Shown: positions 354 to 63,938 of the stretch, in pieces
Layout of the letters: each line of letters starts with the position of its first letter
Numbering within the stretch: the first letter of the stretch is position 1
Assembly: GCA_943736015.1 (NCBI GenBank)
Contig: OX031062.1
Span: 51,944,962 to 52,008,961 of the forward strand
Direction: 5' to 3'
DNA length: 64,000 nucleotides
Origin: Tridacna crocea
Lineage: Eukaryota > Mollusca > Bivalvia > Cardiida > Cardiidae
Notes under the pieces: model-generated
Seen by the model: the letters and a program-made list of their open reading frames with translations, nothing else
Database searches by the model: none
Told to the model about the DNA's origin: nothing
Translations under genes and position numbers: made by a program

Positions 354-867
354 GAAAATGAGGTATAACAGAATGGGTAGATTCTAATGTATTCCACATA
401 GGTCACATATGGTAGATCAAAAGTCAAGGTCGCTGTGGAAGACTGTGCTATGTAGGCATCTTGTACTTTTGCAGTTCCATCCCAAAACATGTAGGATAGC
501 GGATACACAGGGTTATAATAGTAGTTAATGATATGGTGAGCCTTTGGGAGGGCATCAGTTGTGACATTTATGCCGCTATGAGTGTAGAAAACCATTGACG
601 GATAACTCGTGGTAGAGTAGTAATTTCCAGTGAGGTTCAGTCGTTCAACCAGATAGATTCGATTGCTAGCTGTATGTCCATTATTATCCATAATCAGGTG
701 GTGGTAATTTGGTTGGACATTCAGAGAGTTGATATAAACTGTTCCCGAGCCACCATACTGGTATGGGCCTTTTCCTCCATGGATGAGATATTCGCCAGTA
801 AAGTGGTTGTAGTCTGTGTGATAGATAGCAATTCTACCTCCTCCACCACCTCCTCCATTCGTTCCAC
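354..867 (-). CDS. Exon 36 (blocks D-E and start of second discoidin-like domain)
   Basis: Acceptor TTTTAG/GTGGAA, donor TTTTC/GTAAGT; phase 1-2, 514 bp. GGGGGGRIAIYHTDYNHF and GGSGTVYI, then HHLIMDNNGH. From about position 560 downwards it resembles exon 23: SYMFWDGTAKVQDAYIA, then ATLTFDLPYVTYVEYIRIYP (compare LTITLSQEYFINHVKIYP). The rest of this domain lies left of the window. Confidence 0.88.
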
Positions 868-3800: not shown

Positions 3801-6800
3801 ATAATAGATCGAGTCATATGAATAGCCCGAAAAATATCCACCTTTGGATCGTCCCCCTCGGCCCCCATGACCTCCACCAGATCCCCCACCTTCGTAGCTA
3901 TTGGCGTTTCTTCCTGCACCAAGGCCACTGCCACCTGGAAATCCTGTGTGATCCGCATGAAATTCACCTGAAATATAAAACAAAGTAATACAGCAGAAAC
4001 ATAATATTAATACAAAAGGTATATGCAAGGAAATTAATCCTGGTTATACGTAAATTAGGATTTTTTACACACACATACAAAACTTGAAACTTAAATGTAA
4101 TCTAACCCATAACCAGTTGATCTTGGAGTGGAAGGCTTTTGAAAACATTTTAGATTAAAAGGAGAAAATCCTAGAGAACAACAATATTTCTTTTCCTCTA
4201 TATGTTTTCTTCTTGTACATCAACAAATTTTCATCATTTGAGTCACATCTAATTTGTTGCCTACATATGCTCTCAATGTTGATGACTCAAAAATGTTCTT
4301 CTTTGGGTGAAAGACGAAACAAATGCTGGTAACCAGCATTTTTTCCTTTTCCCACAATATTTTTTCTACCCTTTTCACAAAAAATTTCAATTTTTCAGTC
4401 ACATTTGAGACTGAAAAATTGTCATTTGCAAATGATTTCAATTTTGACTTTTTGAAATTTTCGTCATTTGGTAAAGAGTTAACATGTGATCTTGAGTCTT
4501 CATCAAGTTGACCGTAAAGGCTTTTGAAAACACCCTAGGGAAGGAGCCAATGCTGAATACTCACATTTTCCTTTTTTCCCCCACAATGTTTTCTAAAGCC
4601 TTCGGCTCAGATTTCTTAAAAGTTAGAATTCTGTGGTTAAGGATTAAACTAGTTACCAGAAAGATCTACTGTAACATTTGTAGCATTCAGTCGTAGGTTG
4701 TTGGTCCTTACAACACCATTTCCATTCACAATCAATCTCACCACCTCCAGGTTCATCTGTTTTTCTGCAGCAAGTGGTTCAAATCTGCCACCTGCTTTAA
4801 CTGAGATGTTTGTAGCTACCACATGCCCTTCTTCATAGCCGTGACTGTTTGCATAGGACCAGACATATAACTTGCCCTCGTTTTCTATTGTAATATCATC
4901 CATTCCTTCTATTGTTCCATTCACTTCTGCCCAAACTTCACGCAGGGTGACTCGATTTGGTACCTCTATCCTGCTGTATCTATAATTTCAGAGAGATTTT
5001 TGCATTGGTTAATTTACCCCTTATCAGACAACAAAATTTGATATGTTACTACTCAAGGCAATTTAGGATTACTATTTAAAAGTACCTCAATTATAGAATT
5101 TGTCTTTCAAAGTGTAGAAATCAGCAAATACACTGTTATCAGTTCTTTTGTTCATTTCTTTTCACAATGTTTTCTAAACCATTTTTCCACAAGAATGTAA
5201 AAACACAGGACCTTGTACTACAGTAAAGATCTAATGAATGATCAAAATAGCATCCATTGTCAAAATTCCTGGAAATGTGGAAAGAACTATAATTACTTAA
5301 TACTAAGTCTGTTACTATTAAAGAAAGAAAATGGAAATTATCAGCGTGTACTAAAGATCTGGATATTAACCCATTACCTTATAATCACTGCTTTTGACAA
5401 CCCAGAGAAAGAAGCCTCTAGAAAACATTGTGGGAAAAGGAGAAAATGCTGGTAACCAGCATTTTCTCCTTTTTCCAAAATGTTTTCTACCCTTCACAAA
5501 ACAAATTACAAAATTTCAGTCACTTTTTTTCTTCTTCTGCAAATGCTGTTGATTTGGACAAACCTAAAATTTTGTTGTTTGGTAATGAGTTAAAAGTTTT
5601 AAACCTGTTTTTGTCCAAATTATCTGGCAGAGAAGCCTATATTGTAGATCCAAGATTAAACTGCATGTTCTGTAAGGTCTGATGAAATATGCAGCTGTTT
5701 TATACATCCACCTACGTCCATGATTCATGCAAATAAGCCATGAACTGGCAGTCAATCTGTGGAGATATTTATGGTTAATAAAAACTACATCATACTAACT
5801 GTCGTTTGATTTCTCATTGCTTCTATATATTTTAACTGTTCACCGTTAAATCAAACTTTGTTCACATTCTTTTTCTTGATGTACCTGAGGAAAAAGGCTT
5901 TTGAAAACATTACTGGAATAAAAGAAGAAATGGTGGTGATCAGAATCTTCACCTTTTCACACAATATTGTCTACCCTTTCAAAGACAACAGCATCCTTTC
6001 AATCATATTTGACTTGTTTTCTGCGAATGCTTTCAGATTGAATGTGTCTAAAATTTAGTCATTTGGAAAAGAGTTAACACAAACCTGTAAGAAGCTAGAT
6101 TGACTGCCATGTACACATCCACTTCTGTAAACCCAAATGTCTGATTTTTCCCAGCATGCAGAACACCCGTCCTGTCACCAGAAAGAAAAGACACTCTAAC
6201 ATCGATCACTTCCTCCTCTGTATCGCTAAGAATAGCAACATGGGCATTTCCACTGACCTCCAAAAACTGAAAGCTGTAGAAGAAACTGTTATTATAGAGC
6301 CAAGTCACACCTCCAGATCTGGAAATGTCTGCGTACTCTCCATTGAGAAGGTTGACTAGCTCCCCTGATCCAAATGCTGTTTCTCTGGGGTATGTATTTC
6401 CATTGTTGTCGATTAATAACTTCTGGTGCAGCAGTGATCCTGTGGTTAAATTTCTTGCTTCTATATATGACGTTCCTGCACCACCTGACTCACTAGCACT
6501 TGACCCTACAAAAAACAACAAGAGCATCAAATGTGGGTGCCAATGCTTCGCTGCAGTTGCTTTCAGAAATAGATTAATTGATTTTCAATGAAAATTTTAT
6601 GTCGAAAAGCGCATTACCATGTCATAAATATTATAGATGGTCTCCTGCCCCTGTTTTACCATTTTCCCTCTTTATTGTTAACAAATAGTCTCAATTTGAA
6701 ATTTATATCTTTGGTATTGACAGATATATTATAAAACATCAAAGTTTTTTCAGGAAGACAAGAATGCATATGACAACAGGGCTACAACAGTACTTTGATG

Positions 6801-9800
6801 ATTCTCAAAACATAGCCAAGATAAAAATGTCTGTTTTTTTAACCCTTTCCCAAACAAGCCCGGGTTTTTACTTGTCTGCAGTAAAAGTCTTTTATAAACA
6901 GTGTGGGAAAAAGAGAACTTGATTGTAACGAGCAATTTCTCCTTTTCCCAGTGTTCTCTACTCTTTTTGAGAACTTGCTGCCATTTTCTCCAAATCTAAA
7001 ATAGTCATCTGCAAACTCTTTTGTTTTGGAAGAGTCCAAAATCTGTTGTTTGGGAAAGGGTTAAATGTTTCAATTTCACCTTTTCCCAGATGCAGTTACT
7101 GTTTGCAATGATGGCCTTTGAAAAGATACTGGCAGGCAAAGACATTGCTTACAATGAGTCATTTTTAGATATCTTAATGTTTTCTTCTCTGCATATCAAG
7201 CAATGCTAATATTCTCCTTGATATGGGGCATATATTCATTTTAGAATTAGCTATACTTGTTATAAACAATAGTGTTTGTTTGAGATTGAAAAAATGCTTT
7301 TTATCAAACAAATCATTTAAAAAAAATCTTGTATTGATCAAGTTACTAAATACTAGTTACATTAACCCATTACCATACAAATCCCTACTTTTGACGACCT
7401 TGAGTAAGAAGCCTTTAGAAAACATTGTGGGAAAATGTTTTCTACACCTCTCAAAACAAATTTCTAATTTTAAGTCACATTTTTTTCATCATCTGCGAAT
7501 GCTTTCGATTTGAACCAGCCTAAAATATTGTCGTTTGATAAAGGGTTAAGCAAATAAAAGGCTTTTATATGACAAATTATAAAAGTGGCACTTAGCGCAA
7601 CAAAGTACAACAACATGGTTCATATAAAACAAACTATAACAGTAGCTTTGTTACCAAACAATCATGTTTTCATGCCAGTGAGGAAAAATACTTTTGAAAC
7701 CATGGAAGGAAAAGTAGAAAGATGCTGGTAATCTGTAGTTTCTCCTTTTACCTCCTTAACCCTTTACCACACAATGACGATTTTTAAAGACCCTGAGGTA
7801 GAAGCCTTTTAAAAACATTGTGAATCTACCCTTCCCAAATGAAACTTCAGTCACTTTTATTTTGTTGTCTGCAAATGCTTTCAATTTGGACAAACCTAAA
7901 ATATTGTCGTTTGGTATTGAGTTAACAGACAAATCTCTTGATTTCAATTTCACATTTCAAATACATTTGATTGGGGAAACTTTATTGTTAACTCTTTACC
8001 ACACAATCCCGACTTTTAACGACCCTGAGAAAGAAAGCCTTTGAAAACATTGTGGGAAAAGGAGAAAATGCTGGTAACCAGCATTTTCTCCTTTTCCCGC
8101 AATGTTTTCTACCCTTTCCAAATCAATTTTCATTTTTTGATTCACATTTATGTTGTTGTCTGCAAATGGTTCCAAATTGGACTAGTCCAAAATTTTGTCA
8201 TTTGGTACAGAGTTAAATGAAGAGTTATATGTACATGTAGCAATTTAAGATACAATAGTGGCTCTATATGGCATACAACATTCAAAAAAGGGCATTTGGT
8301 TTTCAGTTGTTTGTGTGATTTTCTGTTTTGCGGAAGTCTACTGTAGCACAAAATCAAATGTAGTTGTAAAGTGCCGTCTCAACTTAGCCTGTGCGGTATG
8401 CCCAGGCTAATCCGCTACTATAATTTACGCAAATGTCCAAATGCCTCTTTTTGCAAGCCATATATAACATATCAAAAAGGCCTTAGATGTAACAACTTCT
8501 TCAGATATTACAAACCTCCATGAGCCTTTAATGTTATATTGAACTTTTTGATATTTTCACAATGGACAGCAATGCGCCCTCCGGCTCCACCCCCTCCAGC
8601 AAGACCAGAGGATCCGCCTCCATTTCCACCATTGGCTGTAATTGTTCCATGACCAATTATTTCTGTGCACTCTATGTATACAGAACCACCAGAACCTCCA
8701 CCTGCAAGTACATGTTCTGATTTACTCATCATGCTTAGCAACCCCTGAATTCTTTTCTTTTTAACTTATTACCACACAACAAAATTTTAGACTGGTTCAA
8801 ATTGAAAGCATTTGCAGATGACAAAATAAAGGTGAATGAAAAGTTGAAATTTATTCTGGGAAGGGTAGAAAACACTGTGGGAAAAGGAGAAAATGCTGGT
8901 TACCAGCATTTTCTAATGCTGGTTACCAGCATTTTCTCCTTTTCCTACAGTGTTTTCAAAAGGCTTCTTTCTCAGGGGCATCAAAAGTAGCTATTGTTTG
9001 GTAATGGGTTAATCTAGCATAAGACCACTTTCAAAAATTCTGGAAAAGGAGAAAGGGCTCTAAATGCGTAATTCCTCATTAAGCTTAAGATTTTTTATTG
9101 CATTTTTTCATTAAATTTAAATACATCTTAATTCTGAATTTCAAGGTTATTTTCAGTCATCTGCTCCAAATTCATGCAGAATGTTATCATAATGTAATAA
9201 TTATTTCTGATACATCAGTAACACACACTTAACCCTTTCCCAAACAAGCCCTTGTTTTTACGTGTCTGCAGTTCAAGTCTTTTGAAAACGCTGTGGGAAA
9301 AGAAGAAATTGCTCGTAGCAAGCAATTTCTCCTTTTCCTACGGTGTTTTCTACCCATTTGGAGAAGTCTCTGCCATTTTTATCGAATTTAAAATTGTTGT
9401 CTGCAAACTCTTTGAGTTTGCAAGAGTCTAATATTTGTCGTTTGCGAAAGGTTAAATTCTCCCTAGATGGTGTTAACCTTTTTTCTGCTAAACAATAAAA
9501 ACTATATCTTTAAGTTGGCTGTAAAAAACCCAAATATTACTTTTCAAAGTTACGTTTAGGTGAATAATATCTTCTTATTGGACAGTATAGATCCAAGATA
9601 AGACTGCACATTCTGTGCAGTCTGATTTTGAACTATGTTGTTCACTAAAGATCAGTGAGTCACTCTCAGCAGAGTTATGGGTTTATGAGATGAAAACTTT
9701 CCAGCTCATCAGCTTCCACAAAGAGTTTTCTCCACTGGACAAAAAAATTGGGACAAGCATGTGGGTCAGGTAAATAAGAAGAGCCATGCTATAGCATGAC

Positions 9801-12800
9801 TTAAAAATAAAGTGACCAACAAGTTCCAAAGCACGGGACAGGATTAAAAAAAAAGACTAGTTTCAATTCTTGCTTATCATGGATTTTTGAATAACAAGGA
9901 AAATCTTATCGTAAAGTAAAAGGACAAATTCATAATTCGATGTTATTGAACACTTTGTGACTTCCTCTAGTAACTCTTTACCAAATGACAAAATCGTACA
10001 CTTGTCCCAATTGAAAGCATTTGCAGATGACAATAAATGTGGCTAGAAAAATGAAATTTGCCATGGAAGGGTAGAAAACATTGTGGGAAAAATAGAAAAT
10101 GATGGTAACCAGCATTTGCTACTTTTCCTACAATTTTTTCAAAAGGATTCTTTCTCAGGGTTGTAAAAAGTCGGGATTGAGTGTGAAATAGTTAAGCATT
10201 GTATCTGTGTACTTTTTTCTCTCATAAAACATACCATACCAAGTTTTCCCTATCAAATGAATTAATATTGGCATTAAGCTATGGTATAAAGTAGTTCCAT
10301 ATAAGAATTCATAGTTCATCGATACAAATTAATTAACAGTTAATTGGAAACTATTTTCATAATAGGGTTAGACTCATGCCACAGAGAAAACTTGGTCTCC
10401 TTCATGAAATTTTTGTACAATACCTTTAACTTATACATTACGAACAACCAAGTTTTATCTTATAGGCAAACTTAGATCATATGTATACCTGCTCCTGCAT
10501 CAAATCTAGTATCTGGCGCCAATCCATTCACAGAGATGGTTCCATCTATATCAATATGTGTGCTCTCAAGCCACAATGCTCCACCCCCTGTTCCTCCAGA
10601 ATACTTCAGAATAGGGCTGTTACCATATGGATTATCACCGAAATAGATTTCCCCTGTGGAAATAAAAAAGTTGATGCTAAATCTATCACATCCCCTGAGA
10701 GCTGTGACAGATAGCGGTTCTCATTTTTATATGTTAGTTGATCATAAAACTAAGGGGTCTGTAGCATAAAGCATACAAAAGTGTTACAAAAATAAAGTTG
10801 TATGCATGAAATGTGATTTCTTCATTAATTTTGAGATGTCAAGTTTTTCATATATTCATCTTCAAATTTGTCAAATACCTGTGACAATTACATGTCCACC
10901 ATCTTACCAAGGTGCAGAAAATTCAAAACAATAGCAAGATCAAAATAGAATCTTTATTTATAGAAGTTGTACACTTGGAAAGCCAAAGTTTTGACTTGGG
11001 TCTTTTGGTAAAACTGTCTAAGATTTCAATTTGGTTGAGTTCACCTTTCTTTATTTTTTTATTTAACTCTTTACCACAGAATCCCGACTTTTAACAACCC
11101 TTAGAAAGAAGCCTTTTGAAAATACTGTGGGAAAAGGAGAAAATGCTTGTAACCAGCATTTTCTCCTTTTCCCACAGTGTTTTCTACCCTTCCCAAAATA
11201 AATTTCCATATTTAAGTTGTTTAAGTCGCATTTATTTTGATGTCTGCAAATGTTTTCGATTTGGAACAGTCCAAAATTTTGTCATTTGGTAAAGAGTTGA
11301 TGAAGGGTTAGCTCTTTCAGCATAAAGTTCATGTAAATAAACTCTACCCTTTTACTGTCTAAAAATATTATCCACTAAAGCTGAAAAAAATTCTATCTTA
11401 CAGATTTGACTAAACAAGTGGATGTTATAGATCTGAGATCAGACTACATTCTGTGCAGTATGATCTTTATCTATGTCATACACAAAAGTTTATGGTTTTT
11501 TTTATGGGTTTAGAATATTATATCTCTCCTACCTGCTATCATTTTACCTAGGGTTTAGACTATCATATCTCTTGTACCTGCTGTCATTTAACTTACCAAA
11601 GTATCTACCAAATCCACCTGCAGAGCCATATTGCGACGGTGAAAACAGAGAATCATATCCAACACCCACGGTTATACCAGATGAACCACGGCCACCACTT
11701 CCACCATGCCCTGCACCACTTCCTCCACTTGTAGATCCTAAGTAAACATCCTTTCTGTTTAGTATTCTTTTACAAAACAATCATCTTGGTTTAAACATAT
11801 TTATTTTACATCGATTGAGAAACAAGTTCTTACAACTTATACTAATCTCTCTCGATTCTGCTTCCTGGGAACTACACCGGTACTCGCGCTGAATGTGTGG
11901 GCCAATGAAAAATCCCAAAGTTGACACCCGCTCCCGGCTATCGAACTCAGGACCTATAGGTTATGAGGCCGACGCTCTACCTCACGACCACGAACACCAC
12001 AATCATCTTCTACTCCTTTACCAAGTGACATTTTTTTATTTTATCCAAATCCTAGCCATTTACAGACCATAAATTAAGTGTGTCTAAAATGATGGAAACT
12101 GTGTATGAAAGGGAAGGCAATATAATGGAAATGAAGAAAATACTTGTTACCTGCATTTTCTCCTTTTCCTACAATGTTTCCAAAAGCCTCTTTCCTAAAG
12201 GCTGTGAAAACTCAAAATTGTGTGGTAAAACAGCCTTCTGGAAAAAGGTTTTAGAAAACTCTGGAGAAGGAAAAAATGCAGGTTGGTAACCTAGCTGACC
12301 ATTTTCTTCCATCTTCCATTTCAACAATGTTTTACTATTCTTTCCAAAAAATCCCACCAAATAAATTGCGTCCTCAAAGCATATTAACCAGCACTCAAGC
12401 ACAATACAGTTATTTCCACAATCTGATCCTTTTTATTACAAAATCTATATGCTAACTGGAAAATTCCAACCAAACCCTCTGATGCAAAGAGCAGAAGCTT
12501 CACTCCCGCAGCACTTATTCTTTTAGACATATGTACATTTGTCCAACCTGAAAGCAATTGCAGATGACAATTTAAATGAAACTCAATTGATCGTTCTAAG
12601 ATATAAAGGGAAAAATTTTGTCAAAAATATTTTGAGGGTTACCTGCCCTTGTTGTAAGGGTAATCCTTTCAGTAGCTAATGCTAGCCCACGTTTAAAGCA
12701 AATTAACTCAACAAGACAGAGATATCAGTAACTGTAAAGATTTAAACCTTTACCAAACGACAAAAATTTAGACTAGTTCAAATCAAAATGATTTGCAGAA

Positions 12801-45800: not shown

Positions 45801-48800
45801 GGACAAAATAAAGGTGACTGAAAAATAGAAACTTGTTCTGGGAAGGGTAGAAAACACTGTGGGAAAAGGAGAAAATACTTGTTACCAGAATTTTCTCCTT
45901 TTCCCATAGTGTTTTCAAAAGGCTTCTTTCTAAGGGGCATCAAAAGTAGGGATTGTGTGGTAATGGGTTAAGCCTTTACCGAACAATCCCTGGTTTTTAC
46001 GACCCTGAGACAGAAGCCTTTTGAAAACATTGTGGGAAAAGGAGAAAATGCTGGTAACCAGCATTTTCTCCTTTTCCCACATTGTTTTCTACGCTACTGG
46101 AAAAAAAATCAATTTACGAGTTACGTTTAATTTGACGTCTGCAAATGCTTTCAATTTGGATCAGTCTAAAATTGTGTTGTTTGGTAAAGGGTTATCGTAT
46201 TGTCAGCAACTATAGCTGACAAAATAAAACTGAACCATGTGAAAAAGGGGCTTGATGCATCTGCAAAATGTTTGGCACTGTCAGCCTGCCCAGTCCACAA
46301 AGGCTGACATGAGTTGAAACCTTTTGCCTTGTGTTGATTTTCTGCATTTCCAAACAGCATTTCAGAATGACAGAATTTCTCATGGTTCCATCCCCCCCTT
46401 TCTCTCCCCCGCTTTTCAGTTAGCCATACATGGGGCTGTAAAACACAGATTCACTGGTCCTTCAGCCTTTACCAAACAATCCCTGGTATTTACAACCTTG
46501 AAATAAAAGCCTTTTGAAAACATTGTGGGAAAAGGAGAAATGCAGGTAACCAGCATTTCCTCCTTTTCCCACAATGTTTTCTATCCTGCTGGAAACAAAT
46601 TTCAATTTTGGAGTTACATTTACTTTGTCATGTGTGTGTGCTTTCAAATTGGACCAGTCTAAAATTTTGTTGTTTGGTAAAAGGTTAACTCTTTACCAAA
46701 CAAATTTTTAGACTGCTCCAAACTGGGAGCATTTGCAGATAAGAAAATAAATGTAACTGAAAAATTGAAATTTGTTTTGGGAAGGGTAGAAAACATTGTT
46801 GGAAAAGGAGGAAATGATGGGTACCAGCATTTTCTCCTTTTCCTACAATGTTTTCAAAGGGCTTCTTTTTCAAGGTCGTTAAAAGTAGGGATTGTGTGGT
46901 ATAGAGTATACTGGCTAAATATACAACTACTATTTCTCTTTCTATAAAGAGCTTTTTGTGCACTAAACATGCTAAATAAGTGAAATGAAACTATCAAGAA
47001 ACAGTCTGCAAAAGGTGCTTGAGTCACACTTAACCCTTTCCCAAACAATCCCTGGTTTTTACATGTCTGGAATAGTAGCCTTTTGAAAACATTGTGGGAA
47101 AAGGAGAAAATGCTGGTAACCAGCATTTTCTCCTTTTCCCACAATGTTTTCTACCCTATCATAGACAGAAATCATCTTTTCAGCAAGAATTAAATTGTCG
47201 TCTGCAAATGCTTTCAATTTGGTTTAGTCCAAAAGTTATTTGTTTGGGAAGGGGTTAAGGGTTAATACAATATAGCAAAGTTGGGCAATTGCTTGCTTAA
47301 AGCAATTGCTCCTTTTCGAGCAATGTTTTCAGTTATCATTTCAAAAATTGTTCTTCTTCTATATCATGTTTCTCATCTGTGCTATTTATAGGAATAACCA
47401 TTATAGGTCGAGCTTCATATAGCTTGTATTTGTAATAAATCACTGCCACTTTTAATTATATTTCAGTTATATTGAAGTTGCTGTGCACTTCTCCATGCTT
47501 TCCCATGATCAAGCAGTGTTTGTGCAAAAGATTCCCATTCTTAAGCTAAAACCAGCACCAACAAGAATCATCCATGAGAATAATCTGGTTTGAAGAGCAT
47601 AAAACATCTACAGTACAGTACAACCTGTATTCAGAGACCACTCAAAGAAAGTACTGAAATTGGTCTCTAACAGCAGGTGGTCTTTAAATACATGTTTCAT
47701 TAGGTAAATGTAAGAAGGGTTGCTGAATCAGAACAGTGGTCTCTTAAAGCAGGTGGTCTCTTAATACAGGTGGTCTCTAACACAGGTTTAACTGTATATT
47801 TCTGTACAAAAAGTAATTTTAACCACAACAAACTTTGCCCTACCTTTATAAGATTCACATCAATTAGAATGGAACCACCACTACCACCACCAGAGGCGCC
47901 GGTCCCTGCCTCACCATTACAGCTTATCTCTCCATCATTTTGCAGGGTACCATGAACAAGCAGATATATAACACCCCCTCCTCTTCCTCCGGTCCCAGAG
48001 AGTGTAGAGTTGCCACCGTTACATCCTCGGTCTTCTGGTGAAAACACCTGACCATAGGGAGCCCCAGTATTTTTGTCTAGGCTACCACCTCCTCTCCCAC
48101 CATGACCTGCCCCTGTTGATTGATATATAAAGCATATTCACGTCATTGACTAGCACAATCATCTCCCACAATTTTTTTTTTTTGGCATGCTAAGTTGAAC
48201 CCAATGACAGATGACATGTAAAATGTGATTCAGGAGGAATTTTGAAAGAGTAGAAAACATGGTGGCAAAGGAGAAAAAGCTGGTTACCAGCATTTTCTCC
48301 TTTTCTCCACAATGTTTTCAAACACCTTTGTTATTAAAGTTGTTCAGTATATGGCAATGCACAACCAAATGCTAAGAAGCTTTTTGTATAATTGAAATTG
48401 GTTTATGCTGCCTTAACTGTACTTCAGTCATATTACAATGACAGCTTACCAATTCATGTCTTTCAAGCATTAGGCTGGGGCTCTTCAGTAGTTTACTAAT
48501 ATTGACAATCCTATGCAACAACACTACCAGTTGTAATCTAGTTATTAGGACCTCATTACAAAGCCAACAATTAAACCACAGAATTACCCAAAAGCAGACC
48601 GATTTGTCTAGCAGTGTAAATTTTTTTTAAAAATGGTATAAGAAAAAAAAATGATCATGACAATATCTAATTATGATTTGAAGAGAGCAAAAATCATTGT
48701 GTGAAACAACAATGCTTGCTATCATCATTTTTTCTCCTTTCCCCACAATGCTTTCAAGGGCCTTGTTTCTCAGGGTTGTTACACACAAGATTCTGATCTA

Positions 48801-51800
48801 AAAAATAATCACCGCAACATCCTATGTTTTAAGACCCTTAGATAGAAGACCTTTGACAACATTCTGAGAAAAGGAGAAAATGCATTTCTTACTTGTTATC
48901 TGCAAATGCTTTTATTGTGGACAAGTAAAAAAGCTTTGTTGTCTGGCACACAGTTATACACAAGAATGTTCTAAAGCTGTTTACATAGACTTTAGTTTAG
49001 GAAATAATAAAGATTTCACAGAGTATTTCTATCAGGATGTTCTGAGAATCATAGACTTTACCTGTGCCCCCATAAGCTGTAGTGCCCGAATAGGCAGCAT
49101 CACAGGGAACTGTATGTAGATCACCAACTATTTTACCCAAGTCATCCACTTTTAAATCATCTGCCTCAATGTTTATGTGTGTGGCATGGATCTCTCCCCC
49201 TCCTTGGACAATCAAGTTGGATACCTGCAAGAGAAAACAAGAACCTGTTTAGCTTTTGAAAGTTGGAAATGATAAAACAGTTGTCTGGATTTTATTGTTC
49301 AGTAATACCTTTAAAGTAAATTTTGCTTTCCACTCATTTTTTATTGCAGATAAGTTTTACTCTTTACCAAACAATCCTTACTTTGACAACCCTGACAAAG
49401 AAACCTCTTGAAAACATTGAGGGAAAAGGAGAAAATGCTGGTTATGCCCTTTTGCACATTGTTTTTAATCATTCCCTCAAATCTTAACAAATAAAACCCT
49501 GTTACCAAAAGCGTTTTACTTCGAGACAGAAAAAAAGTGTAATTTACAGAAAGTGTTTATTCAAATTTATACATCAGTATCACACATTATCATTTCTGTC
49601 AAGTATCACTTAGCATCCTGTATTATAGTCTGTATCAAACAAAGTAATCATTATGATATTCTTTCCAAGACCGGTACTAAACTCAGTACCAGACCATAAA
49701 AATTTAAGTCTAGATCAGAGTGAAAACAATTGCAGCTAAGCAATTAAATGTGGCTAAAATCATTGGATTTGGCTTAGTAAGAGTAAAATCCTTTTTAGAA
49801 ATAGGAGAAAATACATTTTCTCATTTGCTTAAAGTGTTTTCATATCCATTTTTCTCTGAATCATTAAATCACACTTTATCTAATGATTCATTACATGGCT
49901 TGCAACAGGTGAAAAGGGTCATTTGATCATTTGTAGATCAGCCTGTGCAGGCTAATCCAATGCAATAGTTTCTGTTTTTAAGTAATTTACTGTTTTGTGG
50001 AAGTCTAATGATGAACAAGGTCTAATGTAGGCTTTTAGTACCATCTCGGATTATCCTGTGCGGACTGCAATGGCTGATCTGAGACAACACTTTACGCAAA
50101 TGTCCCAATGCATATTGCAACCCCTATGTTATTTAAGGGAGTTACATACCAAAAACCTGAATTTCATTAAATAAATAAAAAATTCAAAAGCAATTCACAA
50201 ACCTTCAAATTAATGACATCTTGCTCTCCTGTCAAATCATATGTTGAGGTTATTTCGCCAAAAGCTGTCACAGTCAAGGACACAAAGTCATAAAGACCTG
50301 GCGTACCAGTCACATTGGTACGGGTAGTTGTGCCTGTACTCCCTAGATATAGTGAACAGTTCTGTCCTACTGACATCTCATGTACACCCAGGGTTCCCCT
50401 GTAAAAAGAATCAACTCCTTTAACCCTCTACCACACAATGACGACTTTTAACAACTCAGAGAAAGGGGCCTTTTAAAAACTTTGTGGGAAAAGGAGTAAA
50501 TGCTGGTGACCAGCATTTTCTCCTTTTCCCACAAAGCTTTTTACTCTATCAAAGAAGTATTGCATCGTTTGAGCCACTATGAAATCATCATCTGCAAATG
50601 CTTTCGAACTGGATAGGTCTAGAATTCTGTTCTGTGATAAAGGGTTAACTCTTTACCAAATGACAAAATTTTAGACTGGTCCAAAGTGCGAGCACTTGCA
50701 GATGACAAAATAAATGAAACTCAAAATTTGAAATTTGTTCCAGCAAGGCAGAAAAAATTGTGGGAAAAGAAGGATATGCTGGTTACCAGCATTTTCTTCT
50801 TTTCCCACAATGTTTTCAAAAGGCTTTTATCTCAGGGTTGTAAAATCCAAAGATTGTTTGGTAAAGAGTTAAAAGAAAAACTTTGTTTCAATGACTCTGA
50901 TGTAAAAGCTTTTGAAAACAATGTGGAAAAAGGACATGCTGGTTACCAGCCCTACTAAGAAGACATTCTACTGTTTGCCACATGTGTCATTTTGAACTAT
51001 TTCATATCAGGACAATAAGAGGCTGTGCAAAAATTGGCATACATAGCAGTTCTTCAAACTCATTCATTGACCCAATAGTGCAACTAATTTTTGTTAAAAC
51101 CCTCTACATCACATCACAAATTATTTTGAAAGGGTAGAAAAATTGTGGGTAAAAGGAAAATCCTGGTTACCGGAATTTTCCCCATTCCCCCCAGTGTTTC
51201 AGAAGCCTTTTTTCCTGAGGGTCGCTAAAACTTGGGATTGTGTAGTAAAGGTTCAAAACAAGACAAGACTTACCAAATAAAGAATTCCACATTATGACAT
51301 ATAAAATCATTTGGAAGCACCAGAGTCCCTCCTTCATACACATAAATGTTCAGTAAGAGTTCAAGGTCATCTGGGTGCTGGATCACCACCATCTGATCTG
51401 GTCCAATATGAAGAACACCAGTAGTATCTCCCTCAAACAAAAAGCTCCTCAGTTGAAAAACATCTCTGTGAAAAATTCAGGACAACAACAAAATTTTAGA
51501 ATATTTTTCAAATAATGATTTATCTGAAACTTGTTAGTCTTTTTCAAGAAGATTTAACTTATTATTTCATGCTGTCCAGTAGGATATCGAGATATAGCAG
51601 TGAAAATATTTTTCAACCTTACACTGGTACCACCAGTGAAAATACCAATTTTCATGTTCTTGTTGCCTAGGTTAATTGCATGTGCCTCACAACCAGATGG
51701 AAATATGACATCATTTACCTTAAATTTCTCGCGCTTAAAGTAATATTGTAATGCGTTGCTATGCGGGATGGGTACGCCACGGGGCATAACAGAAAAGAAC

Positions 51801-54800
51801 TGTACTGGATTTTGATAAATCTCCTCCCACAAAGGGTTAAAAGCATGAAATAAGTAGAATACATATTTGTTTTTTTCGGTGAAAGATTGAAATTTATTTC
51901 ATCTCGTGAACACCATCGGTAATATTTTCAAGAGTAGTGCAGCCAGGAGTGAAAATAGTACCAGTTTGTGTCCATTCAATGAAATAAATTTCAATCTTTC
52001 ACCGAAAAAAATAAATATCCTCTATATCATGTAATCCCATACTTAACAGCGCTTGAAAAGTGATCTTAGAATTTCAATGATATGGGTCTTATTTCCAGAC
52101 TGAAGTGTCCTCAAGGTTCATTTGAGCGCTTTAAGTGTGAAGTCTCCTCAGATACTGTAATGATAAATTCCAGCCTTCACTTCCATCTTGTCTGTAGAGG
52201 TTCACTTTAGACCTACCAAAACTATTTTGTTTGTTTGCTTCTATATGGTGTCTTACTTCCTTAACCCTTTACCACACAATGATAAGCTTTAAGGATTTAA
52301 GAAAGTAGCCTATTGAATACATTGTGGGAAAAGGAGAAAATGCTGATAACCAGCATTTTCTCCTTTTTCAACAATGTTTTCTATTCTAATCAAAGAGTAA
52401 TTCCATCTTTTGAGTAATATTGGAATTGCTGTCTGCAAATGCTTCCAATTTGGTTAAGTTTATAAATCAATTTCGCTTGTGTGGTAAAGAGTTAAAACCC
52501 TTATCCTACTAAATAAGTGAAATAAAACTTTCAAGCCAAGACTTAACCCTTTACCACACAATCCCGATTTTTCACGACCCTGAGAAAGAAATCTTTTGAA
52601 AATATTGTAGAATGGAGAAAATGCTGGTATCCAGTTTTCTGCCCTTCCAAAAACAAGTTTCAAATTTTCAGTCACTTTCATTTTGTAGTCTGCAGATGCT
52701 TTCGATTTGGACCAGACTAAGATTTTTTGGTTCGGTAAAGAGTTAAAGCAGACTAATGTTTTGCTTTTTCAAAGATATTTTGAGGAAAAGACATCTCCTT
52801 ACCAGGCAGTATGCAAATTCTGTGCAGTCTGATCTTGATCTACACTATCAACCAGAGTTCTTCAAGATGCACTCGGCAGCTTAAGGGTTCATATTATTTC
52901 AGTCATATTCAGTCAGGGAAGCCTATACTTTCATGGACTTTCTTTCACAAGTATTTTGCACTAATTTTTTCCAAAGCCACTTGCTGCTTTCCCACATAAT
53001 CAGAAACTAGCACATATTATCTCTTTGACCCTTTCCCAAACGACAAATTTTAGACTCTTCCAAACTCAAAGAGTTGCAGACGACAATTTCCAATTGGATA
53101 AAAATGGAAGAAAGTTCTCCAAATGGGTAGAAAATACTGTGGGAAAAGGAGAAATTGCTAATTACGAGCAATTCCTCCTTTTCCCACAGTGTTTTCAATA
53201 GACTTGTACTGCATACACGTAAAAACAAGGGCTTGTTTGGGAAAGGGTTAAAAAAACAACAAAATATTGGAATAGTCCAAATTGAAAGCATTTGAAGACT
53301 ACTAAACAAATTGGAATCGAAAATTGAAATTTGCTGTGGAAAGTGTAGAAAACATTGTGGAATAAGGGCTTCTTTCTCAGGGTTGTTAAAAGTCGGGATT
53401 GTGAGGTAAAGAGTTAAATGAAAACCTTTATGTTTCTCTGTTTCTCTATGGGTAGCTTTGTTGTAAACAACACAAGGTTTCCAACAAAATGTTTGAATGC
53501 TCTTTCAAGGGTAACAACCTACGCCACAGGAAGTGATATCGGACCTGCGCATTTTCGTAACTTATGTCAGCCATATTGAAAAGTAAGTATGATATGAAGA
53601 TAGAATGAGGCTAGCTTCTGTAGATACAAACGGACTATAAAGACTCTCATGTATTTATCAAAGACATTAGATGAATACATTTAATATTCTGATGTTTTAG
53701 GCAGGAAGCAGATGTCTATATGCACAAACACTTTGACCAAATATCAAAAAGTGATTGGGTTTTAATAGTTGGTCGAAGTCTATTCCATTATTATAAGTAG
53801 TTAACAAAAGCTTTGACAAAAAACAAAGTCCCTCAGCATTGTACACTTTGGAGGTCTAAAGACTTTTTCAGATCATTTAAAGGAATGATTACAAAAAAAA
53901 AAAACAGTCTTACCAAACACGCACACTGACTTTATAACACGGGTCCGACATCACCACCTGTGACGTCACACTGACGTACGTTGTGAGGGATGTCTTTAGG
54001 GAATGGGAATGAAAAATATAATATACATCATCTCTATGTCTTGGATTTTCTGTAACGCTATTAACTTACGAATTGAGATCTGGACTGATTGCAAGATGTG
54101 CATCTCTGACAAGTCTGATCTGGTCCATTTCCTCTATAGTATCTTCTGTAATCCATGTTCTGCTTCCTTCAGTGTCATAGTTACCATATGTATGGTCTGT
54201 GATTTCAAGCGGGGTAACAGCTTGTCCAAAATTATCTATTATTAAGGTCTTATTCTGCGCATCTGTGGTGGCATCCTGTACAAAAATATATTCGACTTGA
54301 CCCATTAACACACAATCCCTACTTATAGAAAGAAGCCTTTAGAAAACATTGTGGGAAAAGGAGAAAATGCTGGTAACCAGGATTTTCTCCTTTTCCCACA
54401 ATGTTTTCTACCCTTCACAAAACAAATTTCAACTTTTCAGTCACTTTCATTTTGTCCTCTGAAAGTACTTTTGATTTGGACAAGCTTAAAATATTTCTTT
54501 TGGTAATGAGTTAACCTTTTATCACATGATTCTGTGTTTTAATGACCTTGATGAAAGAAAGGGCTTTTGAAAACATTGTTGGTAAGAAGAGAAAATGCTG
54601 TTTACCATCACTTTCTTTTTTTTTTCACCACAACGTTTTATACCCATTCCAAAGACCACTTCCATTATTTGAACAACATTAAATTTGTCCTCTGCAAATG
54701 CTTTCAACTTACAGGATTTGAGAGATCTGAGGAAATGAGAAAATGCTTGTAACCAGTGTGTTCTTCTCAAACAATGTTTTCTACTGTGTCAAAAATGCAT

Positions 54801-57800
54801 CCCATAATTTAACTTTTTACCACACAATCCTGACATCCAACGAAATTTTGGACTGGTCAAAATAGAAAGCATCTGCAGACGATGAAATTAATGTGAACCT
54901 AAAATTGAAATTTGATTTGGAAAGGGTAGAAATCATTGTTGGAAATGGAGAAAATGTTGGTAAAGGAGAAAATACTGGTTACCAGCATTTTCTGCTTTTC
55001 CTACAATATTTTCAAAGGCTTTGTTAACTCTTTACCAAACGACAAAATCTTAGACTGGTCCAAATTGAAAGCACTTGCAGACAACAAAATAAAGCTGACT
55101 CAAAAATTGAAACTTGTTTCCAGTAGGGTAGAAAACATTGTGGGAAAAGGAGAAAATGCTGGTAACCAGCATTTTCTCCTTTTCCCTCAATGTTTTCAAA
55201 AGGCTTTTTTTTCAGGGTCGTTAAAAGACGGGATTGTGTGGTAAAGAGTTAAAAGTCAGGATTGTGTGGAAAAGAGCTAACATCCATACCTGGAGATAAA
55301 TGATTCCAGCTCCTCCTATTCCTTTACTCCCGGCTCCACCTTTAGCATTTAAAGTACCAAACCAGTACTCTGTGGACTGATAATACACTGTCAACCTGCC
55401 TCCACCACCGGCCCCTGAGTCGGACCCTCCTGCCCCTCCTGCCACCTCAATATTGCCTGAGCCCTCTAAATTATAAGTGTATATGGTGATGCCACCACCA
55501 CTCCCACCGCCTATAGTACTATGTCCATTGTTTCCATTTGCATGAATGGTGCCCTCTATCATTAGCAGTTGGGAAATGTGAAGTAGTAGTCTTCCTCCAC
55601 CTGTCATATTTGAAAGAGTAAAGACATTGTTGAAATCTTTAACTACCGTATAACGGGTTTTTTTTACGTGCTGCCAATTTTTTTTACTAATTTTTACGCA
55701 TCAAAAAGATTCATAAAAATTTGACGTGTAAATAATTACAGCATAAAACCGTAGTATTTTATCGATATGAAATAAAGGGTTATCAAAATGTAATACCTGT
55801 GCACTAAATACACGCATTGTAAGAATATATTCACTTGTGTTCTGATTACGTGTGATAGGACTTCTCTCAATCAGTCATCTCTATTTGGATATTTTAAACC
55901 CAGCTTCCATGGTCAAACGGAAAACTAACTGATAATTCCAACCCATACTACACATGAATTGAATATTCAGGTTAAAAATGCTTCGACACCACGTAAACGA
56001 GGGACTTTCACGACACTCGACAGGTTGATTATGGCAGTGATGAGATATTGACTCGGCATTGGGCCACTTCAATAATGTCACGAATGGGACTTGTGAAAAG
56101 ACGTGGCTGTACAACTGCAAAACCCAAGGTTAAAAATTTCGATGAGCTAAAGGAGGGCGTTCTATACAGAGTGAAAAAAGTAATGAGAGATGACAATATT
56201 CCTCCTAAGTTAGTAATCAATTATGACCATACAGGTATAGCTGTTAAAACAGTTATTCGCACGTCAAAACAAATACCGCTATCAGCACGCAAAACAAAGA
56301 GTGACACTTTTCTTTTAATCTGTATTTAAAAGAAACAATACAGTTACAATCTTAAATGAAAGAATGGACAATGCACTGGTATTTTTAATGCTGTAATTTT
56401 TTACGCATGTTTAGAATTAGTAAAAAATAAAATCGTAAAAAATTAAATCACATGTTTTTACCTCAAATCCATAAACTTTTACAGCAGTAAAAAAAAAAAG
56501 TTATATGATATTTAACATAAACATAACATAGCAAAACATAACACTTTTCTGAAGTGAAAGCACTTGCAGATAACAATAAAATGTAGCTAAACTGATGAAA
56601 CAATTTGTTCTGAAAGGTTGAAAATATTATGGCAGATGAGAAAATAGAGACAAACTTTTGTAGAAAAATAAAAGTAATGACTATTTTCAACCCAGTTATG
56701 AACAAGAGCATTGCATGTGGGTGCCAAAATTTGACTGTAGTTACTTGATTTTCGGTGGAAATTTGTCAAAACGGGTCATGTCTCAAAATGATATGATGGT
56801 TATGTGCCCTTGTGGTATTGGTTCCTCTTTTTATAGTTAATCACTTGTCCAAGTTTGAAGTCAATATCTTCACTAATTTTTGATATTACAAAACATCAAA
56901 GTTTTTGCGCAACCACAAAGATGACATTTGGGCTTTTACCATACCTTCATGTTTTCTTTGTAAACAGCCATGTTAAAAACACTGATAAATCACAGGACAG
57001 GAAATGGCTTTGGTTTGAACTGTCTCATACATTAGATTATAAAGAGGGGAGCAAAGACTGTCAAATATCCAATGCCTAAGCTCCAGGCAAACAACAAACC
57101 AACCTGATCCATATGTTGTTGTAGCTCCAGCTCCACCACTTCCATAGAGTATTGCTGCATCAGCAAACAAGCCATAAGGTTTTCCAGGCATGCTGTCTAT
57201 AAAAAGGAATTAACCCGTTACCACACAGCAAAATTTCAGACCTATCCAAATTGACAGAATTTGCAGACAACAATTTCAAAGTGGCTCAAATGGTGCATTG
57301 GCTTAAATGTTGCAAAATTGCTTTGAAAGGGTAGAAAACTTTGTGGGAAAAGGAGAAAATGCTGGTATCCAGCATTTTCTCCTTTTCCCACAATGTTTTC
57401 AAAACGCCTCTTCCTTAAAGGTATCAAGTCTTCATTGTTTGGTAAAGAAGTAGGAATTATATATCATTTAATTCTTTATAAAATGACCATGTGTTTCCCC
57501 GACTCTCAAGAATAATTTTGTAAAATGCCTAATGTTGTTTTGAATATTTTTCAGTTATATTACGACTGCCAGTGTATCTATCCGTGCTATCCTGAAATCC
57601 CTTTTCTCAGTATATTGCATGATATTCTCCAAAAGCCAGTATCTCGTTTAACCCTTTACCACACAATGCCAACTTTTGATGCTCCTGGAAAAGAAGCCTT
57701 TTGAAAACATTGTGGGAAAAGAAGAAAATGCTGGTAACCACCATTTTCGCCTTTTTCCACAATGTTTTCTACCTGGTCTAAAGCCTGTACAAAATGAGGA

Positions 57801-60800
57801 ACTGGGCTTGTCATGAAGAGCAAGGATTAACTCTACCAAATGATAAATTTTTAGACTTATTCAAATTGAAAGCATTTACAGACAACCAAACTGAAAATTT
57901 GAAATTTGTTTTGGGAAAGGTAGAAAACACTGTGGAAAAAGTGTTTTCTTTTACTACAATGTTTTCAATAGGCTTCTTTTTCAAGGTTGTTAAAAATCAG
58001 GATTGTGTAGTTAAAAGTTAATTAAACATCATAAAGAAGAGAAGAAAATACTGATGACTTGTATTTTCTCCTTTTTCCACAAAGTTTTCTACTCTTTCGA
58101 AAACCATTTCCATCTGAGACACTTTGATTTTCATCTTTCAATTTGATTTGGCTTGAAATTTGTTGTCTTTTATACAGTTAAGCATCTCTACATATAAAAT
58201 CTATATTAACATTTTTTAAAATATTTCATACTTATTATTCGTTTGATTGTACATATTTCTATGAAAAATAGAATATATTAGTAACGCCTTATCAATTCAC
58301 TTTAATTGAAACAGTATACAGACATTTTGCCTGCATTCAAAATTCTAAATTAAAGCAAAAGTACCAGCGACATCAGAATTTGCTCCGCCTGTACCACCAT
58401 AACTGCCACCTGCGTTATTGACACCCTGACCTTGACCTCCAGTCCAACCCAAACCAGTGGCAGAAATTTCCCCGCCCTTGTCCACTTTCAGGATATCCGT
58501 GTCAAAAAGTATATTCCTACCCTCAACAATACCATCCGACTCTACTGTAATCATGCCAGTGTAGGATCCATAGCGTACCTGGAAGTGTATTGTTGAAAAT
58601 AATTATTTCTTGTTTCAAAAGATGTCTACTATGGACATACAGGGTCCATATTCATCAACAATTCTCAAGAGCATTCTTTGTCTTATTCTCCAGAATTAAA
58701 GTTTCTTGGACATTTTATCTTTTCTTTCTATCTGGATAAAAATTTCAGGAAAACGATTTATCGCAATAGTTTTCTAAAATTATCATAATAAGTTTCACAT
58801 ATCTCGTAGAAGATTAATGCCACCACACTCCACACTATACTTACGTATAACTCATGCTAATTTTGTTCGTAATTACCTCAGTGAAACGGGGCCGTGGAGG
58901 TCTGTACACTCTGATCTTGATTTACACTGTTGCTTAGGTGACTCGAGTTATGCGTAGCAATTTTTAAAAACATACTAAGCCTTACCTGTAGATGCCATGG
59001 GTGGTCAGTATCAGCTGGACTGTGTAAGTTAACAATCCCTCCATGCTTGACAGTTAAGTTGGCAAAGGAGATATCACTGGTGCCAGACACCCCCAAGTCC
59101 AGTACAGCCCCTGCAGATTGTATTAAAGGATAATTTGGGCATATTCATCCCATGGAAATTCATGGCCTCTTTCTTAAGAGATATTACTTACCGAAACCTT
59201 TCTCCTGTCATACACAACCATTACTGTATGTTTGAGGTGTGTATAAATATATTGCTGAGCGTCATTTTAGTCTATACAATCTGCTTCTGTGTCAGCTATT
59301 TCAGTCAAACAATCATTGTTGAATGCAAATAAACTGAACACCAGATAAGCTGTATTTCAAACTAAGGAGATATTATAAGTGGCTAACAGTGATCAGACTG
59401 CTACTCTTCCTCATATGACTAAGTATGGGACTCAAACAAATCAAAAGTTTTGCACACAACTACATTGGGATTTGTCTCAGAAAGGGCAGAAAACATTTTC
59501 AAAACATTCTCTTCCTTACAACAAATGACTGTTTGGTACAGAGTTATTTCAGAAACCTTTGGTTTTGAGTTCTTAACTCTTCACCACGCACACAAAAAAA
59601 ATTGGACTTAACCAAAGTCAAAGCATTTGCAGACAACAAATCAAATGTATCTCATATCATTTTTTCTGTCTTTGTTAGGGTAGAAAACATTATGGGAAAA
59701 GGATAAAATGCTGGTTACCAGCATTTTCTCCTTTTCCTACCATGTTTTCAAAAGTCTTCCTCCTTCCGGGTCATTAAAACTTGGGATTGTGTGGTAAAAG
59801 GTTAAGCTGATAGCTGCTTCTTATAGTTTAAGAATCTATGAACTAGGTATTGAAGATCTGGTTGTATACAAGATGTCTCCTGACTGTCTATGGTCAAACT
59901 TGAACTCTTTACCCAACAAAGGTACATTTTAGACCCGTCTGGTTTGAAAATGCTGGTAAACACAGCATTTTCTCCTTTTTCCTCCATGTTTTCAAAAGTT
60001 GTATTTGCCAGGGTCATTAAAACACCAAATCATTTGCAAGAAGATCAAACCTACCTGTAGACACAATGATATGAGTCCTTGATGCATCTAGAGTGCCCCA
60101 TATTCTTCCAGTAGTAGACCTAAGAAACCCAGCAGTACAAATATCAGCATCTGAGGTCATTCCAAGTCCTGCCTGGTCCAGAGGCTCTCTCAGTTCTACA
60201 GTAGTTTGTGGTAAAGTCCAGAGAGCGCCCTCATATAGATACACTTCATATGTGATGTTGGTCTTTAAATATTCATTTTCCTGAAAAGCAAGTATCATCA
60301 AAGCACTAAAACTGTTACACCCTTAACTCTTTAGCACACAATCCCAACTTTTAACGACTCTGAGAAAGAAAGTTTCTGAAAACATTGTGGGAAAAGAAGA
60401 AAATGCTGGTAACCAGCATTTTCTTCTTTTCCCACGATGTTTTCTACCCTTTCCATGGCAAGTTTCAATTTCCCGATCATTTTTATTTTGTCGTCTGCAA
60501 GTACTTTCAATTTAGGCCCTGCCAAAATGTTGTCATTTGGTAAAGAGTCAAAGCGCCAATATAACCAAACAAACATGCTTAGTTTTGAAATACAACCAGA
60601 ATAATTGCAATGTTATGATGTTTGTAGTCTTCAACAATTCAGGAAAGTGGACATGTGGTGAGGATCAAAGATCAGACTGCATATTTTCTGTGGTCTGATC
60701 TTGATCTACACTTGCTGCAAACACGACCATGGCTGTTAAAGGCATCCTATGGGTTATCACTCATTATGCTCATAAAGAAAAATGTCTACCCCCTCCCAAA

Positions 60801-63800
60801 CATACAAAAACAGCTGGTATATGTGTATAGACTAAAACTGTTCATTTGATTTGTTTACCAGTGTAACTATTGACCCCGCATGTTTTCCTGTTCATATATG
60901 GTACATATAAAGCTTTTTGTATCTGTACAAAAACAGCAAAGGAAAAATTTGTGGAATACAGCACATACTTGCAGCGATTAACGTCTTGCTCTTTTACCAG
61001 CAATGTTCCGGCACTGTTCAATAAAAATAATGTTTTGCTTACAAGTGTAGCTCGTAACAATTTACATATTCAGCAAAGGTTTGATACAAAGCTGTCATAT
61101 ACACTTCCATACCTCTGTCAGCTCAAAAAACTGCCCAGGTCCAATATGCAAATGTCCTGTTTCATCCCCATACATCCTGACAGCCTGTAAACCAGTACCT
61201 GACCCTTCAAGGGCTAGATGGGCTCCACCATACAGCTCAACATATGTGAAGGAAAACGTAAAGTTGTCTGTTTCAGGGTGAAGATATGCAATGGCTCCTG
61301 AAAGAAATTTATGAAAAGAAATTTGAGCCACAGACCAATTAGATGAAAAACTAAAGGAAAAGAGCTGAAAGCAGCACAGAAATATCATAAAACTGAGAGC
61401 TAAGTCTTATTAGTAACTTAATGGAAGTAAACCCCTTACCACACAAGAAAACTGGAAGAATTTGTAGAGGAGAAACAAAAAAATACTCAAATGATCAGAT
61501 TTGTTTCACAAAAATTAGAAACAATGTGGGAAAGGAAGCCAGCATTTGTCTTTTTCCAAGATGTTTTCAAAAGGCTTCTTCCTGAATTCATCACCAAAAC
61601 AACAATATTTTAGGCTAGTCCAAATTGAAAGCATTTGCAGACGACAAATTTATAGTGACTGAAAATTTGAAACTTTCTCTGGGAAGAGTAGAAAACATTG
61701 TGGGAAAAGGAGAAAATGCTGGTTACCAGCATTTTCTCCTTTTCCCACAATGTTTTCTAAAAGCTTCTTTCTCTAAGGGTTGTCAAAAGTAGGAATTGTG
61801 TGGTAATGGGTTAAGGTCATTAAAACTTGGGTTTTGGGTAAAGAGTTAAAACACTCTAACTATACCTGTTCTGGTATAATAAGCATATTCCACTGTGCCA
61901 GCAGCGGAACCTGACGGTTCTGTTACCTGTATAAAAGGAAAAAAATCAATTTAAGGTTTCTCAATCAACTCAGCATTACAAAAATATGAAATATCACACC
62001 TCTGCCGAGATCGACCCATCTTTTGAAAAATAGAGGTTTTTCATGACCCTAAGAGATTGAAGCCTTCTGTAAACATTGTGGGAAAATGAAAAAATGCTGA
62101 TAACCAGCATTTTCTCCTTTTCCCACAATGTTTTCTACCCTGCTGGAAACAACTTTCAGTTTTTGAGTTATGTTTATTTTGTCGTATGCAAGTGCTTTCA
62201 ATTTGGAACAATCTAAAATCCTATCGTTTGGTAATGAGTTAAGCCGGATTAAATTTGCAACCTACAGACATTTTTAGTACTAACAATTTTTTTTTTTTTT
62301 TCATTAGGAAGTCAGCAGATTTTGTTTTCAAATACATCATAATAATTTTATTACAATGTATCTAAAACGATGCTACATGAATAATTTGTTACGAACAAGA
62401 AAGTTTACAATAAATGCACAGCTGAAATACAAACCACCTCTGGCGGGATTCAAACCCATGACGGACAAATATCTTCGTTTTTCAAGGTTCAAGAGACCAA
62501 TACCATACCCACTGAGCCAAAGAGATATCTTCCCAATGCAGTAGTCAGGTATTGTATTTAACTCTTTACCACACGAGAAAATTTTAGACTGGGCCAAATT
62601 GAAAGCATTTGCAGATGACAAAATAAAGGTGACTGAAAAATTGAAATTTGTTCTGGGAAGGGTAGAAAACACTGTGGGAAAAGGAGAAAATGCTGATTAC
62701 CAGCATTTTCTCCTTTTCCCACAGTGTTTTCAAAAGGCTTCTTTCTCAGGGGCATCAAAAGTAGGGATTGTGTGGTAATGGGTTAAATAAGGACAAAGCT
62801 GTGCATGAAGGAGTGGTCTCCCATAACACAATCATGAACTTTATTTCTTTATGGTTAAAAGATACACTCATAATCAATCATAGCTGATGAAAAAAGTCTC
62901 ACACATACAAGCAAAATTACTGTACAAGTACTCACATTTGGGCTCTGACAATTATTATCCACTCTAAGATTGGTGATGGTGGATGTCTGAAAGAATGTAA
63001 GACCTGGACCCCCATCTTCTCCATAGGTTGAGGAACCACCTGAAAGTCGGAATCAAACAAAACCTGTGTCCAACCTCTAGTTACAAACTAACATGGACTT
63101 CTGAAGAACAGTGACCAACTTATAGCTTTCCATTCCTTGGGTGCTCTGGACATATTTGGTATAGACTTTCACTCGTTACAAGAAGACCATCTTTGCAAGC
63201 CAAGGTAATGATCACTATGCTGATCTTATAATAAGACCCAAATAGTGATTGTCAGCTTGGCTTGTGAAGGTGCCAGAAGACAAAAATATAGACTCTACTA
63301 TACTGCAGGCCTCTGAAGATCTATTAGTCTATCACAAAACACTAAAATTGTCCCTGGTCGATCATCAAATACTTATAGCACAATGGTGCATCCCCTGTAT
63401 AACACAGAATATATAAATTCAAATTTTCATTCAGGCCAAAAATGCTTATATGCTGCAGATCAAATGCTTAAATTTGTCTCAGAAAGAGTAGAAAATACAG
63501 AACATATGGTAAAAAAGGTTTGCTACCAAGCGTTTTCACCTTTTTCCCATTATATTTTCAAAAGCTTTATGTATTCCTCAAAGTCACAAAAAAAACTCAG
63601 AGGTTGTTTTGCAAAGGAATTATTCAGCACTTGAAAAGAGCAAGTGAATACCTTTATTTTGTACCAGTCCAGAATGATAGTTTGCAGTCTGTGTGAAAAC
63701 ATGGATGCGACCTCCTGCTCCACCACCTCCGTATGTTGCACTGCCTCCATTACAGTACATTTTTCCTGTCAGGCTGAAGTCTTTGTCACTATGAAGATAA

Positions 63801-63835: not shown

Positions 63836-63938
63836 CTGTTGGGAATAAGACAAAAATCATATCAATAAAAGATGTCTATAATCTATAAATAACAAGATAA
63901 TTTTGACAACAAGATGCATAAATTTTCAGTGAAAATTT

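Follow-up and report, generated by a model that had tools for sequence, protein, structure and literature searches.

Giant genes are an established kind in prokaryotes, for which predicted proteins of up to 85,800 amino acids (aa) and tandem beta-helix domains have been described (PMC12057145). Here, we describe a minus-strand locus of the bivalve Tridacna crocea that spans a 64-kb stretch of DNA (the window; C7:51944962-52008961, with coordinates below in window numbering) and continues beyond it. On the sequence comparisons below, the locus is best read as belonging to an animal branch, rich in introns, of a family of giant modular proteins that is widespread in prokaryotes. Among the literature matches listed, no description of this protein was found, as judged by titles and the beginnings of abstracts. 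With a probability of roughly 60%, we consider that the window covers the central part of a single nuclear animal gene, at least 225 kb long, transcribed as a single unit and encoding more than 30 head-to-tail modules of about 420 residues, and that its product would form a very long extracellular rod of solenoid modules serving as a scaffold or adhesive filament.

A stop-to-stop open reading frame (ORF) of 1504 codons was located on the minus strand (36016-40530) and consisted of three modules of about 420 residues that could be aligned end to end when a Cys-rich insert was left out. One half of each module was Gly-rich (GSxGG ... GGGSGGSI ... GGGGAGGRIA), and the other was composed of short beta strands. 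A 421-position profile was made from the three modules (36019-40530). At E<0.01, it matched 25 minus-strand segments of the window but no plus-strand segment, and the segments followed one another in cyclic order between 63838 and 644. A splice-aware dynamic program, in which the module was treated as circular and splice sites were scored generically, gave the minus strand 2531 nats and the plus strand 14.6; because phase match and stop-free reading are forced by the program, the score difference and not the phasing counts as evidence. The window-only model contained 38 non-empty exons, of which three were shorter than 30 nucleotides and are doubtful, and eight module junctions, corresponding to nine modules (two partial), while a longer model placed 37 exons in the window. 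These values agree well with the initial annotation, which had counted 36 exons and about nine modules of some 400 residues. The donor score level reached by 5.6% of all GT sites was met by 59% of the donors chosen in the window-only model, a comparison biased by the program's own preference for good donors. In the ORF and the longer model, a 4.4-kb exon (36078-40505, minus strand) held the whole of modules 3 (A) and 4 (B) together with most of module 5 (C).

Relatives were sought in a genome-contig collection of 84,980 species by its own description. When the Gly-rich half served as the query, 547 candidate stretches were retrieved and 13 of them confirmed, representing 13 loci in bacteria and archaea; with motifs of the second half only, none of 38 stretches was confirmed. 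The animal profile matched the proteins of the 13 loci at up to 385 bits and in several copies each, with repeat periods of approximately 257 aa (L011, L003, and L005), mostly 360 aa (L004 and L006), and 430 aa (L007). The Gly-rich half, about 150 residues long and ordered GSxGG / GGG / GGGSGGSI / GGGGxGGRIA, was present in the animal modules as in the prokaryotic group, and the animal gene, as read from the DNA model, likewise carried several head-to-tail copies in a very long chain. Reciprocally, profiles of four prokaryotic module sets matched exons of the window (best E-value 1.7e-27), and hhalign yielded 99.3-99.7% over 315 columns with L006 and 135-159 columns with the other three sets, the latter corresponding to the Gly-rich half. 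The second half alone scored 60% (E 1.2e-5) against L006, in this one set. A mixed profile of 11 prokaryotic and 2 animal rows (E<=0.001) found matches in 24 of 194, 13 of 119, 9 of 44, and 29 of 192 genomes of four phyla, although these phyla were picked because each holds a seed, the seed genomes are included, and the weakest matches may be due to chance. The expectation that the module would lack relatives elsewhere or be limited to lophotrochozoans was not supported, as giant prokaryotic proteins share it. Three matches were also seen at G112:C1:3963589-3967644, in a genome belonging to the same phylum as L011, where they lay within a single open frame of 14,967 codons. No relative was found in phages, plasmids, or viral contigs with the BLAST low-complexity filter on, where 0 of 130 and 0 of 296 pattern-matching viral stretches were confirmed.

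An animal ancestor may have acquired the module from a bacterium or archaeon through horizontal transfer, after which it was expanded and invaded by introns, an origin that is compatible with the giant-gene reading but that we propose tentatively, its probability being well short of even. In its favor, modules B and C were, in their Gly-rich halves, 41 and 38% identical, respectively, to one Verrucomicrobiota module, to which the non-Verrucomicrobiota prokaryotic modules in the alignment were 37-48% identical; exons holding about three modules were free of introns; and in a tree of 61 rows, 10 of the 13 animal rows fell on one supported branch (97/81). The tree had 4 label changes, compared with 11.9 in shuffles. 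The identity figure depends on the stretch counted, and module B with its lead was 21-33% identical to 27 whole prokaryotic rows. However, the Verrucomicrobiota modules were 56-67% identical to one another, and the animal rows are therefore not especially close to them. Moreover, the three remaining animal rows, which are long-branched, were placed elsewhere, no bootstrap tree united all animal rows, and an ancient presence in eukaryotes is equally possible, the relatives having been sought in prokaryotes, phages, plasmids, and viral contigs. In a bolder scenario, a giant surface adhesin of prokaryotes was taken over by an animal, which raised the number of beta-solenoid modules to more than 30 and duplicated the gene as a whole; the product may then be among the longest animal extracellular rods, a matrix or adhesive polymer of a type not yet described in animals. 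This scenario appears rather unlikely.

After 300 kb of flanking DNA was added (364 kb analyzed in all), an iterated profile matched 84 minus-strand segments and no plus-strand segment (E<0.01), with E-values that lean towards the gene because the profile was derived from its own matches. In window coordinates, the extended model began near +85.7 kb and ended at -139.7 kb, its left limit being the edge of the analyzed DNA; it encoded 12,744 aa in 102 exons and included 31 module junctions. It is incomplete: neither gene end was found in the 364 kb, the last exon reached still lay within a module, and no signal peptide was found in this model, whose start was not recognized. The first 12 modeled pieces (131-224 kb; 3 empty) were artefacts and were dropped from the counts, and a piece at 95.3 kb, perhaps part of the gene, was also excluded. 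Among these artefacts, three copies looked GMC-oxidoreductase-like by eye, approximately 204-224 kb to the right of window position 1 (L037-L039). The feature originally delimited at 354..63835 therefore corresponds to a real minus-strand chain, but its coordinates cover only the middle, and the chain continues past both window edges. As an alternative, the locus could consist of several neighboring genes with few modules each, considering that the chain rests on a DNA model spanning 225 kb with large introns, that the program imposes both chain and phases, and that the ends were not reached. We regard this as improbable, since all 31 module junctions lay inside exons and none at introns, so that any boundary between genes would need to interrupt a module. 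As far as DNA can show, the initial annotation of a single giant modular protein was supported.

A search of the same genome with the 1504-aa ORF yielded at least 40 matches, all on the minus strand of C7, of which 19 belonged to this gene and 21 to a second gene at 30.63-30.81 Mb; the list is a lower bound, as 31 of 87 first-look candidates were scored. The second gene was 64% identical over 1175 stop-free codons and contained an ORF of 1344 codons where this gene has the 4.4-kb three-module exon. Long ORFs of the two genes could be paired (1344/1504, 1420/1422, 1059/1037, 813/839, and 675/690 codons in the second and present genes, respectively), which suggests that the long exons predate the gene duplication. 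The reading of the match at 51935208 ran through a TAG codon, which may only reflect reading beyond an exon edge.

Gly accounts for 16.4% of the 12,744-aa model protein, and Gly-rich sequences easily match each other; a likeness to the prokaryotic proteins arising by chance and not by common descent is nevertheless very unlikely. In a control with five full shuffles, five Gly-fixed shuffles, and one reversal for each of 12 matching proteins of >=300 aa, the highest score was 2.4 bits, the Gly-fixed shuffles included, and the animal and prokaryotic sequences agreed at non-Gly positions and in the order within the module. This control omitted the L013 fragment (234 aa, 33.4 bits) because it is shorter than 300 aa, and a thirteenth ORF on the shuffle list scored only 1.9 bits unshuffled. 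Bacterial contamination or mis-assembly, which the presence of the module in many prokaryotes might bring to mind, can be practically dismissed in view of about 100 modeled introns, the second gene, which is diverged and shares the contig, and the location of the locus in a 62.4-Mb contig of a 1.049-Gb, 31-contig assembly.

According to structure prediction, the architecture may be beta-helix-like, as suggested in the initial annotation, and each module is predicted to form a stretch of beta-solenoid. In a Foldseek search of a viral structure library, the model of module B matched proteins of an Ostreococcus virus, a Pandoravirus, and a Bathycoccus virus with probabilities of 1.00, 0.97, and 0.91, E-values of 0.0036, 0.027, and 0.24 (none at E<=0.001), and 19-21% identity; such viruses may carry relatives. 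In beta-solenoids, each coil of 20-25 residues usually adds a rise of about 0.5 nm, and 12,700 residues would extend over approximately 0.25-0.3 micrometres if wholly solenoid. Chained head to tail, the modules of the giant gene would build a very long, stiff rod, presumably secreted, which, bearing side inserts and N-glycans, could provide a scaffold or an adhesive filament at the cell surface or beyond it. The Gly-rich loops, the Cys-rich insert, and the N-glycosylation sequons, mildly enriched in the 12,744-aa model (136 compared with 110.6 +/- 9.5 in 500 shuffles), fit such a role.

The suggestion that no named domain shows this pattern held for Pfam but not for NCBIfam. Pfam-A scans, which covered selected exons, returned no family for six animal proteins at E<=1, six at E<=5 (one common to both sets), or module B with its lead at E<=0.1. 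In NCBIfam, the AgmC domain model NF047640 (gliding_AgmC_N) is a weak named relative: it matched the animal 1504-aa ORF in three stretches (E 8e-5, 21.7 bits), module B with its lead at 17.4 bits, 12 of 39 mixed animal and prokaryotic module rows at E<=0.01, and the giant L007 protein in nine stretches (1.1e-46). Because the scores are far below the curated cut-off of this equivalog-domain model (21.7 bits for the animal against 275), AgmC is a relative of the module, which is not a member of that family; the model was found in none of 14 named control genomes and exceeded the cut-off in none of 13 genomes. PDB sequences (best match E 0.52), Rfam, and PHROGs provided no useful name; PHROG 13336 (7.5e-4) is without function. 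A beta-lactamase assignment for the exon at 42779-43552 was rejected as noise (NCBIfam E 0.14).

All modules of the window are on the minus strand, and those outside the long exon were placed by profile matches and the splice model. Module 0 (58365-63838) begins to the right of the window and comprises exons 63838-63652, 63039-62936, 61364-61113, 60280-60055, 59110-58986, and 58578-58365. Module 1 (48054-57196) comprises 57196-57104, 55600-55290, 54275-54070, 51465-51274, 50398-50203, 49224-49062, and the first part of 48112-47844, the rest of which opens module 2 (40480-48053), followed by 45683-45473, 44350-44201, 43476-42799, and the first codons of the long exon. That exon contains about three modules without interruption, whereas the adjoining modules are split into several exons. 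Its module A carries the Cys-rich insert (39604-40224, 207 aa, no Pfam match) between Gly-rich motifs; an intron inside this module in the first splice model was discarded, as the longer model and the 1504-codon ORF read straight through. Module 6 (11649-34541) includes 34654-34481 (across the junction), 33822-33676, 32338-32122, 23586-23411, 21540-21392, 19847-19656, 14830-14683, and smaller, less certain exons. Module 7 (3813-11648) includes 11737-11597 (across the junction), 10653-10489, 8716-8516, 6505-6085, 4979-4657, and the first part of 3967-3740. Module 8 (509-3812), which continues to the left of the window at -3364, includes the rest of 3967-3740, 2104-1937, and 867-509, the left end of the last being unsure (377 in the first model and 509 in the longer one). 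To the right of the window, a 660-aa exon (68679-66697, minus strand) matched no Pfam family, and on visual inspection it lacked a Gly-rich half.

By eye, two modules appeared to have a similar stretch in common (29657-29944 and about 353-520); an F5/8C-like name given to these inserts by eye was dropped because neither matched Pfam and the second had no PDB match. Between modeled exons, there were two tandem arrays of 156-base units (26561-28479, 12.3 copies; 40995-42048, 6.8 copies). A 22-base word matched the window 118 times (<=3 mismatches), compared with 0 expected by shuffling; its copies, often paired head to head into a palindrome of about 44 bases, lay outside the long exon, with none at approximately 35.9-42.2 kb, and the word is probably a dispersed hairpin repeat.

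A gene for which Pfam offers no family is now tied to a bacterial and archaeal module, and lessons from the one can be tested in the other. If the rod interpretation of the giant gene is true, animal extracellular proteins would gain a size and fold otherwise seen in bacterial adhesins. Intron-free three-module exons within an intron-rich gene may further bear on how such giants grow. Compared with known systems, the predicted fold resembles that of beta-solenoid adhesins (the autotransporter passengers TibA, Ag43, and pertactin, together with EtpA and the tapirins), which were the best re-aligned structures; however, identity in the structural alignments was about 10%, no autotransporter barrel was seen, and the origin is animal. 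The adventurous gliding motility protein AgmC, compared through NF047640, shows a weak sequence likeness to the animal ORF. Further counterparts are the giant proteins of Verrucomicrobiota, Patescibacteria/Dojkabacteria, Nanoarchaeota, and other metagenome-assembled genomes (L001-L011), which resemble the animal gene in their cyclic module, head-to-tail copies, and long ORFs. In contrast to the animal gene, no introns were seen in them, the half following the Gly-rich part is shorter or diverged, and CARDB and DUF7619 in L011 and CARDB in L007 accompany the module, neither of which was seen in the animal pieces scanned.
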